From the NCBI RefSeq assembly GCF_013409935.1, contig NZ_JACCCO010000001.1, forward strand, positions 3,720,001 to 3,784,000: DNA of 64,000 nt, in the 5' to 3' direction. Source of the DNA: Streptosporangium sandarakinum. Lineage in GTDB: Bacteria > Actinomycetota > Actinomycetes > Streptosporangiales > Streptosporangiaceae. The notes beneath the pieces are model-generated. The model saw nothing but the letters and a program-made list of their open reading frames with translations, made no database searches and was not told where the DNA came from. The position numbers and the translations under genes were made by a program. Every line of letters begins with the position of its first letter. The stretch's first letter is position 1. Positions 34,441 to 37,718 of this stretch are shown piece after piece.

Positions 34441-35100
34441 ATGCGAAAAGCAGGTCCACCAGAGCTTCGAGGAGGCTGCGTGGCACGCGTGCCGTATGGG
34501 CGGTGGGGGGCGTTCTCGCCCGCCGTCCGGCGCGTGCCCGCGGCCGTCTCCGTTGACGGCGCGGTCTTCGCGCGGGATGACCGGATGGCGCGGTTCGCGG
34601 CCGGCTCCCGGCTGATCGTCAGGCGAGCGCTCTCCATCGGCGGCCTGCTGGCCGCCGGATGGCTGCTCGCGGTCGTCTTCGGGCTTCTCGGCGCCGCTCC
34701 GGCCGCCGCGGACACCACCGCGGCGGCCGGACCGGCCGGTTCGCGTGCCCCCGTCTCCGCCGCTTCCGGACCGGCCGTCAAGGCCGGTGTCTTCCCCGCG
34801 GAGAGCGGCACGCCTTCGGCGTCGGGCGACGCCGAAGCGATGGCCGGGCGAGGCGTGGACGGGCTCACCAGCCAGTCCGGGCCGGTGTCCCCGGCCCCCG
34901 CCGCCGTTGACCACGGCTCCGGCACCGATGGGTTCCTGCCCCAGGGCAACGGTGGTTCCGGCCCCTCCGGGCCGGGTGTGGGGGATGTCGCGAGGTTCGT
35001 CTACGACCCGCGGCCCATGGTGCGGCGCGCCCCGCTGGCGTGCGTGCTCCCCCCTGTCGTCCGCACAGCGGCGGACGACCCCTCCTTCTCTCCTGACTGA
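34441..35100 (+). CDS. Unrecognised secreted or membrane-tethered protein upstream of the chaplin
   Basis: A 219-residue protein I do not recognise. It has a long polar, Arg-rich N-terminus, one hydrophobic segment at about 60-85 (LSIGGLLAAGWLLAVVFGLL) followed by AAPAAADTT as a possible signal-peptidase site, then Ala/Ser/Gly/Pro-rich low-complexity sequence. The C-terminal 30 residues contain VARFVYDPRPMVRRAP and one cysteine. The gene sits 240 bp before the large chaplin gene on the same strand. An internal start nearer the hydrophobic stretch (ATG at 34585, MARFAAG) would give a more usual signal peptide. Confidence 0.55.
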   Translation: MRKAGPPELRGGCVARVPYGRWGAFSPAVRRVPAAVSVDGAVFARDDRMARFAAGSRLIVRRALSIGGLLAAGWLLAVVFGLLGAAPAAADTTAAAGPAGSRAPVSAASGPAVKAGVFPAESGTPSASGDAEAMAGRGVDGLTSQSGPVSPAPAAVDHGSGTDGFLPQGNGGSGPSGPGVGDVARFVYDPRPMVRRAPLACVLPPVVRTAADDPSFSPD

Positions 35101-35339
35101 CGCCGTGTCCCGCGTGCCCGGGTTTCCCCACCGGACACGCTCACCGGCCGCGGAGCGCGTCATGGCCTCCCCTCTCCGGGGAGTCGCTCCGCCCGCCGGA
35201 CGACCGGTGATCTCCAGTTCCTCGTGACGGCCGTCGGGGCTTTCCGCTGCACGCGTTCCCGTCAGGTTCTCGCGCGGCCTCGCATGCCCGCCACGAGACG
35301 TCAGGCATTCCCCCCGAACAACCGCAAGGAGCATCAAAC

Positions 35340-37349
35340 ATGCGTACGTGGGTTAAGGGCTCGACCCCCGCGGCACTGCTCGCGCTGGGTGTCATGACAC
35401 TCGGCAGCGGTACGGCTTTCGCGGACACCTCCGGTGACCATTCGGTCGGCGGTGGCAACCAGGTCAACCTCCCGATCACCCTGCCGATCGACATCAGCGG
35501 CAACGCCGCCGCGGTCGCCGGGAAGTCCCGGGCGGGCTCCACGGGCGGCGCCTCCGCCGGCGCCCCGAACACCACCGGCGCCACCGGCGGCGGCGTCCCC
35601 GGAGAGACCTCCGGCAGGGGCAGCGTCCTGGGCGGCAACCAGGTCAACGCCCCGATCACCGCGCCCATCGACGCCTGCGGCAACGCGCTCTCCCTGTTCG
35701 GCCGCTCCGAGGCCGGCTGCCGGGGCGGCGCGTCGGTCTCGCGGGGCGGTGGCGGCGGGGCGGGTGGCAACCGTACGAACGGTGACCACAGTGTGGTGGG
35801 CGGTAACCAGGTGGTCGCGCCGATCACCGCTCCGGTCGATGTGTGCGGCAACTCCGTCGCGGTCGTCGGCCGGGCGGCCGCGGGGTGCCGGGGTGGTGCG
35901 TCCGTTCACGGTTCCGGCGGGGGCAGCGGTGCGGGGGGCAACGTGACCTCCGGGCGCGGGTCCGTGCTGGGCGGTAACCAGGTGGTCGCGCCGATCACCG
36001 CTCCGATCAACATCTGCGGCAACTCCGTCGCCGTCATCGGCCGGGCCTTCTCCGGCTGCGCCGGCGGAGCCAAGGTCGGTGACGACGGTCCCGGCGGTCC
36101 CGGTCACCCGGGTGGTCCCGGTCACCCAGGTGGTCCCGGTCACCCCGGCGGTCCGGGCAAGCCTGGTTACCCGGGCGGTCCGGGCCAGCCCGGCGGTCCC
36201 GGTCACCCAGGTGGTCCCGGTCAGCCCGGTGGTCCGGGTAAGCCTGGTTACCCGGGCGGGCACGGTGATCCCGGTAAGCCGGGCGGCCACGGTCGTCCCG
36301 GGCAGCCGGGCGGACACGGCCGCCCCGACGGTCCCGGTCACCCGGGTCGTCCCGGCCACCCCGGTCAGCCGGGTGGCCCGGGTCAGCCCGGCGGTCCCGG
36401 TCAGCCTGGTGGCCCCGGTCGGCCCGGCGGTGACGGCGGTTCCGGTCCGCGTCCGGGTTCCACCGGAAACGACACCGACGGCCGGTTCAGCGTCGGCGGC
36501 GGTAACCAGGTGGTCGCACCGATCACCGCACCGGTCGAGACCTGCGGCAACGCCGTCGGCAATGCCGCGGCCGGTTGCCCGGGCGGGGTGTCCGTTCCCG
36601 GCTCCGGCGGGGGGCGCGGCACCGGGGGTGCGGGGGGCAATGTGACCTCCGGGCGCGGGTCCGTGCTGGGTGGCAACCAGGTGGTCGCGCCGATCACCGC
36701 TCCGGTCGATGTGTGCGGCAACTCCGTCGCGGTCGTCGGCCGGGCGGCCGCGGGGTGCCGGGGTGGTGCGTCCGTCCACGGTTCCGGCGGGGGCAGCGGT
36801 GCGGGGGGCAACGTGACCTCCGGGCGCGGGTCCGTGCTGGGTGGCAACCAGGTGGTCGCGCCGATCACCGCTCCGATCAACATCTGCGGCAACGCGGTCG
36901 CCGTCCTCGGTGACGCCGCCGCCGGCTGCCTGGGCGGCTCCCACGCCGGTGGGCCGGGGCACTCCGGGGCCTCCGCGATGCCCACCGCCGCCCGGGCGGG
37001 CCGTACCGCGCTACTGCCCGAGATCCCCGTCCTGCCGGGCGCCCGCGGGGCCGCCCAGCACTCGGGCCGCGGATCCGGTCAGAACGCGGGTCGCGAGTCC
37101 GGCCTGAACGCGGGTCGCGGGGTCGCGCAGCACCCGGGCCGCAAGGCCGGCGCTCCGGACGCGGTCACCTCCGCCCCGGTCGGCCGTGCGCTGCCCGCCG
37201 GCGACCTCGGCCTGATGAGCGCCGCCCGGCCCGCGGGTGTGGCCGGCATGAACTCCGGCGCCCTGGCCGCCCTTCTGGTCGGTGCCATGGCCGCTCTCTC
37301 CGCCACCCTGCTCGCGGCCACCCGCCGCTTCCGGCTCGGTCGGAAGTAA
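35340..37349 (+). CDS. Seven-domain chaplin with collagen-like (Gly-X-Pro) core and C-terminal membrane anchor
   Basis: A 669-residue secreted protein. The signal peptide cleaves near AFA-DT (about 29). Seven chaplin domains of the type GGNQVVAPITAPVDVCGNSVAVVGRAAAGC start near 37, 100, 155, 215, 387, 443 and 503. The first lacks the cysteine pair, and the fifth has a shortened middle. Between domains 4 and 5 (about 248-368) runs a (Gly-X-Pro)n collagen-like segment of about 40 triplets. A C-terminal helix (about 640-662) followed by RRFRLGRK anchors it; no LPXTG sorting motif is visible. Chaplins are amyloid-like surface proteins that coat aerial hyphae. Domains 3-4 and 6-7 are nearly identical in DNA. 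Confidence 0.9.
   Translation: MRTWVKGSTPAALLALGVMTLGSGTAFADTSGDHSVGGGNQVNLPITLPIDISGNAAAVAGKSRAGSTGGASAGAPNTTGATGGGVPGETSGRGSVLGGNQVNAPITAPIDACGNALSLFGRSEAGCRGGASVSRGGGGGAGGNRTNGDHSVVGGNQVVAPITAPVDVCGNSVAVVGRAAAGCRGGASVHGSGGGSGAGGNVTSGRGSVLGGNQVVAPITAPINICGNSVAVIGRAFSGCAGGAKVGDDGPGGPGHPGGPGHPGGPGHPGGPGKPGYPGGPGQPGGPGHPGGPGQPGGPGKPGYPGGHGDPGKPGGHGRPGQPGGHGRPDGPGHPGRPGHPGQPGGPGQPGGPGQPGGPGRPGGDGGSGPRPGSTGNDTDGRFSVGGGNQVVAPITAPVETCGNAVGNAAAGCPGGVSVPGSGGGRGTGGAGGNVTSGRGSVLGGNQVVAPITAPVDVCGNSVAVVGRAAAGCRGGASVHGSGGGSGAGGNVTSGRGSVLGGNQVVAPITAPINICGNAVAVLGDAAAGCLGGSHAGGPGHSGASAMPTAARAGRTALLPEIPVLPGARGAAQHSGRGSGQNAGRESGLNAGRGVAQHPGRKAGAPDAVTSAPVGRALPAGDLGLMSAARPAGVAGMNSGALAALLVGAMAALSATLLAATRRFRLGRK
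36085..36445 (+). repeat. Collagen-like triplet repeat DNA
   Basis: About forty 9-bp units (GGT/GGC-x-CCx) encode Gly-X-Pro triplets with X mostly Gly, His, Gln, Lys, Tyr or Arg. There is one interruption (RPD) and several 18- to 36-bp higher-order units such as GGTCACCCAGGTGGTCCC. Confidence 0.9.
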
Positions 37350-37718
37350 CGCCGAGGCGGTCCGGAACCAGCCGGAGCGGCGATCCGGACCCGGGGCCGG
37401 ACACAGAGTCGGGCCCGGGGCCGGACTCAGGGCCGGACACAGAGCCGGACCCCAGAGTCGGAAGTCGACCGCCGGACGACGGGGCGGGAAGCGAGACGGC
37501 AGGTAATACATCAGTAACTCTTTGGTCATGTCCCCTCAGAGCCGCTGGGGGAGACGCGCAGGCGCTCCGCCGCCGGTGAGAGGAACCGCGGGCCCAGGCG
37601 GCCCGGGTTCCGATCGCCGGGCGGAGCGGGAGTGCTTTGCCCGTTCCGGGGGCGCGGCCCGGGGCGGGCAAAGCCATGTCGGTCCGCCGCCTTCGCGGGT
37701 CACGGGGACCGCGGCCGG
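37350..37718. other. Intergenic region after the chaplin gene
   Basis: No gene supported in these 369 bp. The first 100 bp are degenerate repeats of GGGGCCGGAC-ACAGAG type (about 37394-37460). The remainder is GC-rich, with only overlapping unsupported frames on both strands. Confidence 0.6.

Follow-up and report, generated by a model that had tools for sequence, protein, structure and literature searches.

What is the working part of a protein in which chaplin domains flank a long block of Gly-X-Pro triplets? The question is raised by a gene in a 64,000-nucleotide stretch of the Streptosporangium sandarakinum genome (contig NZ_JACCCO010000001.1, positions 3,720,001 to 3,784,000; hereafter the window, on whose + strand all features described here lie). 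The original prediction was of a chaplin fused to a rigid collagen-like core, in which triple-helical rods would hold amyloid modules at the hyphal surface. In our analysis the chaplin part is the more interesting of the two. The gene, at 35340..37349, rather probably encodes a single-gene coat protein, hereafter the poly-chaplin, whose modules stack in an amyloid-like manner and whose Gly-rich spacer leaves the stack as a loop. What is new here, as read from the sequence, is a multi-chaplin chain from one gene, whose first module lacks cysteines and whose anchor is non-canonical.

Seven chaplin domains in one conserved gene

The open reading frame (ORF) is intact, begins with ATG and has an orthologue in 16/16 genomes of the genus. 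The 669-aa product scores 119.1 bits against Pfam ChpA-C (PF03777; cut-off 21), with matches in seven stretches, which bears out the seven chaplin domains first proposed. Domain 1 comprises residues 29-71 (35424..35552). Both Pfam and a sequence pattern recognise domains 2 (residues 89-131, 35604..35732), 3 (145-187, 35772..35900), 4 (202-244, 35943..36071), 6 (435-477, 36642..36770) and 7 (492-534, 36813..36941), whilst domain 5 (378-420, 36471..36599), shortened between its cysteines, was placed by alignment and pattern. The first two GN motifs are present in all seven domains, and domain 5 has an extra internal GN. The Gly-X-Pro-rich linker (residues 252-372, 36093..36455) was delimited by triplet count and a low predicted local distance difference test (pLDDT). 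The N-terminus is strongly conserved, and its first 29 residues (MRTWVKG...AFA-D, 35340..35426) form a putative secretion signal, by which the protein is putatively secreted.

The survey covered the 16 genus genomes (G000-G015) and the best 80 of 207 relatives from a scan of named genomes; some genomes are counted twice, once under a G handle and once as a named locus. Counts over 92 proteins (88 distinct, four duplicates) exclude L087, L117 and L161, which lie at the ends of contigs, and two G014 fragments. Domains, spacings and cysteines were counted with the pattern, not with the Pfam model; in several genera (e.g. Microbispora) domain 5 escapes the pattern, and L084 is misread by it. Poly-chaplins occur in many genera of the Streptosporangiaceae, at a single locus next to topA, and the genera of the relatives include Nonomuraea, Microbispora, Herbidospora, Acrocarpospora, Planotetraspora, Planomonospora and Sphaerisporangium.

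The poly-chaplin is essentially the sole chaplin gene in the 16 Streptosporangium genomes searched. In 15 of them every PF03777 match at E 0.01 or better lies inside it. The exception is G014, where the poly-chaplin is split between contig ends and a weak match occurs elsewhere (20.6 bits, in a 496-aa frame, G014:C113:74417-74518). Short chaplins were detected in other genera of the family (e.g. L054, L057), so the PF03777 search can see them.

The cysteine pattern is equally constant. Domain 1 has Ser at both cysteine positions in 92/92 proteins, and two cysteines are present in 275/276 of domains 2-4. The Streptomyces-type chaplin domain has two conserved cysteines according to an excerpt of PMC13251363; domains 2-4 carry them and domain 1 does not. 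Domain 1 thereby resembles ChpE of Streptomyces coelicolor, a short chaplin without either cysteine which, in an excerpt of PMC3079736, is thought to coordinate the assembly of other chaplins. However, ChpE is a separate peptide, whereas the Cys-less unit here is one module of a long chain. The excerpt of PMC4255298 mentions chaplin-like proteins in S. roseum without giving a domain architecture, and a literature search on chaplin with Nonomuraea listed only a paper on nematode microbiota, as judged by its listing. No NCBIfam family was found at E up to 1 for the poly-chaplin or for its neighbour at 34585-35100.

A linker of fixed position and free length

What follows domain 4 is a spacer that keeps its position while its length and sequence vary freely. 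The standard deviation is 36.3 residues for the distance between domains 4 and 5, and 3.1-3.5 for the three preceding distances; with the pattern on which these values are based, the longest 4-5 spacings and linkers of genera other than Streptosporangium come out too large, and the shortest 1-2 and 2-3 spacings are erroneous. Linkers range from about ten to over 100 residues (pattern-based median 25.5 in the 92 proteins) and are built of several repeat types, with a median Gly content of 34% (range 13-57%).

Runs of at least 10 consecutive Gly-X-Pro triplets occur in 5/92 proteins (the window protein, G002, G007, G009 and G013), all from Streptosporangium. Elsewhere in the genus the longest runs are 7 and 6 (G012), 6 (G001), 5 (G004), 4 (G006, G008) and 3 (G005 and a G014 fragment), with none of 3 or more in G003, G010, G011 and G015. 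In G007, 12 triplets are followed by Ser-Gly repeats, and Microbispora has Gly-Gly-His repeats at the linker site. With long runs so restricted and other repeats elsewhere, collagen as a conserved core was rejected. On a topA+M20 tree the long-run species do not form a single clade: the branch with G013, G012 and G002 is separate from G000 (the window genome) and G009, the deep branches having weak support, G003 is sister to G013/G012/G002, and G007 is sister to G014. Repeated gain or loss of long Gly-X-Pro runs is therefore likely. As far as these sequences tell, the Gly-X-Pro block arose when a tolerant spacer was expanded in particular lineages.

Predicted fold and the proposed coat

AlphaFold2 was run on the full-length protein with 77 aligned proteins (76 of the 80 loci used), and on domains 1-4 with an alignment from 74 loci. 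The best of five full-length models has a mean pLDDT of 60.4 and a predicted template modelling score (pTM) of 0.57. Its ten-residue pLDDT means are ~72-88 in the domain cores, ~35-46 in the linker and mostly <50 in the C-terminal stretch. VIA-align superposed this model on curli CsgA (8c50_A) with Z 9.8 and a root mean square deviation (rmsd) of 3.2 over 164 residues, in the model range 43-537. Because this alignment spans both sides of the linker, we infer that the domains may form one continuous beta stack from which the linker is looped out. The nearest mechanistic analogue, by analogy of arrangement, is FapC, in which an excerpt of PMC12392863 describes repeats stacked as a beta-solenoid, with one hypervariable linker between them (linker 2, 35-259 residues) and one constrained linker (linker 1, 28-34). 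Like FapC and CsgA, the poly-chaplin has imperfect beta repeats; the likeness of fold is one suggested by the AlphaFold2 model, and no sequence homology was seen.

The preferred reading can be set out as follows. After export, the C-terminal helix would anchor the chain in the membrane, so that its seven chaplin modules are displayed on the surface of hyphae, spores or sporangia. A module would be a short beta or cross-beta unit, the first without cysteines and the others with paired ones; the modules would probably stack, within a chain or between chains, to give a hydrophobic, amyloid-like coat, possibly a cross-beta stack of the curli or FapC kind. A single gene would then do the work that in Streptomyces is shared out between short and long chaplins. 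Behind domain 4, the Gly-rich segment would act as a length-tolerant spacer, flexible or extended and looped out as FapC linkers are, which in some Streptosporangium lineages would have expanded into Gly-X-Pro repeats. Such a coat protein may have a role in aerial growth.

Several observations weigh against this reading. The other four full-length models have mean pLDDT values of 55.9 to 42.6, and domains 1-4 alone reach a mean of 58.9 (five models, 58.9 to 40.2), with CsgA 8enq as best match at Z 7.0 over 89 residues. Unrelated chains (4dn7 and SufB-C-D) reach Z 10, as high as CsgA, with a far worse rmsd of 9 to 14. FapC itself aligns with Z of only 2.6 (full model) and 2.1 (domains 1-4), and with Foldseek neither model had a match at E 0.001 or below. 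AlphaFold2 is also reported to invent solenoids for repeats, according to the abstract of PMC11795689. Moreover, none of the seven window domains has, at the expected place, the third GN motif known from Streptomyces chaplin domains, and at the pre-helix motif described below the window protein, like that of G009, has Ala and not Thr before the conserved Gly. Finally, the window genome is 95.6% complete, so that in this genome alone a short chaplin may have escaped the search.

Alternative explanations for the linker

The collagen-like alternative holds that three chains wind through the Gly-X-Pro block into a triple-helical rod which parts two chaplin clusters. At first sight the linker invites it: a strict Gly-X-Y run of 26 triplets is followed by a single Asp-Gly-Pro break and 13 more, and the longest Gly-X-Pro run is 18, against a maximum of 5 in 5000 shuffles of the same residues. 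The count of about 40 Gly-X-Pro triplets given originally is slightly high; 40 triplets are in phase, of which 33 are Gly-X-Pro. Searched by sequence against the PDB, the linker resembles collagen IX alpha-1 (E 2.6e-10) and the Gly-X-Y fibril sequence 8zxl (E 5.8e-76), both of them low-complexity matches, and differences within the array are biased to third codon positions. Nothing relevant to 8zxl came up in a literature search. When the entire protein was compared with the PDB by phmmer (E up to 1), the 20 matches listed included no chaplin, and nearly all of them fall on the linker. However, a closer inspection of composition points the other way. The 26-triplet run has no Pro at X, and Gly occupies X in 11 of the 33 Gly-X-Pro triplets; with Gly at X and unhydroxylated Pro solely at Y, a weak triple helix is expected. 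Bacterial collagen-like proteins of the Scl and Bcl type share the Gly-X-Y triplets; the poly-chaplin differs from them in having no Pro at X in the main run, and in the two points that follow. The linker alone matches Pfam Collagen (PF01391) weakly (21.8 bits, E 0.00016), below the cut-off of 27.2; the G013 stretch scores 15.7 bits and for the whole 669-aa protein no Pfam Collagen match with E up to 1 is listed. Orthologues do not conserve the repeat, long runs being confined to the five proteins named above, and Pfam recognised no trimerisation domain in the protein. A rigid collagen core as the working part is therefore not supported, and a triple helix in the linker is improbable. Among the matches listed, the Pfam Collagen model also hits 5 to 84 times per genome in the 16 genus genomes, and even antisense to the orthologues in G002, G009 and G013; for these reasons it was rejected as a genome-wide detector. 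Two frames of the window's own genome, genes or not, lie above its cut-off (G000:C1:4065583-4065879 and G000:C2:1668478-1669407). A literature search on chaplin with collagen-like showed no chaplin-collagen fusion among the matches listed, as judged by title.

Alternatively, the block might be neutral low-complexity growth in G+C-rich DNA at an insertion-tolerant site, with no function of its own. The different repeat types at the site in different lineages, the scatter of long runs on the topA+M20 tree and tandem periods of 9, 18, 27 and 81 bases in the repeat DNA all speak for growth of this kind. However, the linkers of the window and its nearest relative, G009, differ by 34 synonymous and 8 non-synonymous changes in 118 aligned codons (a synonymous count that misaligned repeat units can inflate), 69 of 114 differences in the window array at a lag of 18 bases fall at third codon positions, and linkers at this site are usually rich in Gly. 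In the window/G009 lineage the protein seems to retain its Gly and Pro, which argues against pure drift there without lending support to a triple helix. Of the signs of drift originally named, a scattered and frame-unstable repeat in close relatives, about half are seen: relatives do not conserve the repeat, yet it shows no scatter, and its changes within the window/G009 pair look as though the protein sequence were kept. We regard wholly neutral growth as rather unlikely. Somewhat easier to entertain, though we still doubt it, is a single-chain stalk: a polyproline-II-like or disordered spacer between independent chaplin clusters, one reaching the outer layer and the other near the wall, with no continuous stack. 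The Gly and Pro content and predicted disorder of the linker are consistent with a stalk, as are its conserved position and free length, and the clusters on either side align separately. Against it, CsgA and the full-length model align as one unit across the linker, and a linker of median length is too short for a long reach.

Comparison with known chaplins

Like the long chaplins ChpA-C of S. coelicolor, the poly-chaplin has several chaplin domains and a C-terminal hydrophobic helix with a basic tail, a presumed surface anchor. It differs in that it has seven domains where they have two, lacks LPXTG/LAXTG as well as the cysteines of the first domain, and contains a Gly-rich linker; no short chaplin gene was seen in the 16 genus genomes. 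A second point of comparison is the set of 23 long LPXTG multi-chaplin proteins from other genera of the family (loci L037-L066), which likewise combine 2 to 5 chaplin domains (by pattern) with a C-terminal anchor. However, 22 of these 23 carry LPxTG or LAxTG, their stalks are Asp/Glu-rich where read, and their first domains have cysteines, except in L046. In this last protein (genome G142), which is built of chaplin repeats, a Cys-less first domain occurs together with LPGTG, and this places it between the two anchor types.

A bolder proposal, which we hold tentatively and think more likely wrong than right, is that in Streptosporangium and its relatives one chain has replaced the multi-gene chaplin system. 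That chain would comprise a ChpE-like Cys-less starter, several ChpH-like modules and a membrane anchor, forming an amyloid stack whose modules are connected from the outset and whose linker is looped out as in FapC, and would use an xTGMN sorting motif and a dedicated secreted partner, the product of 34585-35100 (next to it in 93/96 loci). Full replacement would hold for Streptosporangium only, as some relatives of other genera keep short chaplins too. In S. coelicolor, eight partly redundant chaplin genes make it hard to study how the number, order, cysteine content and anchoring of modules act in a hydrophobic coat. In a genus with a single multi-module chaplin gene the same question is open to one deletion and module-by-module changes, and the naturally varying linker is a ready comparison for the effect of linker length on a surface amyloid.

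C-terminal tail and anchoring

Domain 7 is followed by an Ala/Gly/Pro-rich stretch (36960..37208), of low confidence in the AlphaFold2 model, which is a possible wall-spanning segment. Next comes a conserved pre-helix motif, GLMSAxQPxGxTGMN (37209..37253), which reads GLMSAARPAGVAGMN in the window. The C-terminal membrane helix stands as a prediction at residues 639-663, with a basic tail after it (helix and tail, 37254..37346); R662, R663 and R665 are invariant in the 77 aligned proteins. Thr precedes the conserved Gly of the motif in 84/92 proteins. A canonical C-terminal sortase motif is absent from the window protein, and the Thr-Gly of relatives lacks LPx or LAx. The window genome has four sortase-family matches, none of them in the 64-kb window, where no sortase is encoded near the poly-chaplin. 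Paralogues of the tail were considered as proof of a sorting system and rejected, the sole other match in the window's own genome having E 1.45.

Segment duplication

A DNA self-comparison identified a duplicated block whose copies lie at 35793..36081 (domains 3-4) and 36663..36951 (domains 6-7). The copies share 265 of 289 bases (92%), including 225 of the first 231 and an exact run of 101, which supports growth of the gene by segment duplication. Near-identity of the two segments, as first described, extends over domain 3/6 and the beginning of domain 4/7; across the whole of domain 4 versus domain 7 it is only 76%. The copies look homogenised within each species: both read VDVCGN...RAAAGC in the window and both read VNVCGN...RAVAGC in G009. 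Species-specific residues are common to duplicated domains 3 and 6 in the window and to 3 and 7 in G009 (L075), a sign of gene conversion. The G009 protein has one chaplin domain more than that of the window.

Gene neighbourhood

The order small ORF, poly-chaplin, topA is strongly kept, with topA in 93/96 loci and the small ORF in 93/96 (E 1e-6). The loci without topA (L081, L117, L161) are all cut at contig ends, as are two of those without the small ORF (L080, L087); in L142 the small ORF was undetected. A gene for an M20 peptidase precedes the trio in 65/96 loci and was not found in many Nonomuraea loci within the flank searched. In the window the small ORF (34585..35100, 171 aa from MARFAAG) encodes, by locus survey, alignment and family searches, a conserved secreted or membrane protein whose N-terminal part includes a hydrophobic stretch and whose C-terminus, PPVVRTAADDPSFSPD, hardly varies; neither Pfam nor NCBIfam offered a family at a meaningful score. 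It was found in 13/296 genomes of the class, of which 11 were strong matches, all in the same family. All 11 also have ChpA-C, and other genomes of the family with ChpA-C (e.g. G056, G060) are without it. The small ORF product is a candidate coat or assembly factor.

A conserved element, CGTGAC-N16-CGCTGC, lies at 35223..35250, ~117 bases before the poly-chaplin start codon. CGTGAC occurs at the aligned place in 12/15 genus sequences (TGTGAC in L067, CGTGCC in L082, absent in L076), at a spacing of 14-16 from a CGCTGT/C box. It resembles a promoter of the extracytoplasmic function (ECF) sigma type, with a possible likeness to the sigma-BldN consensus. Lastly, a 12/24-base tandem repeat lies at 37385-37462, ~35 bases past the poly-chaplin stop codon.
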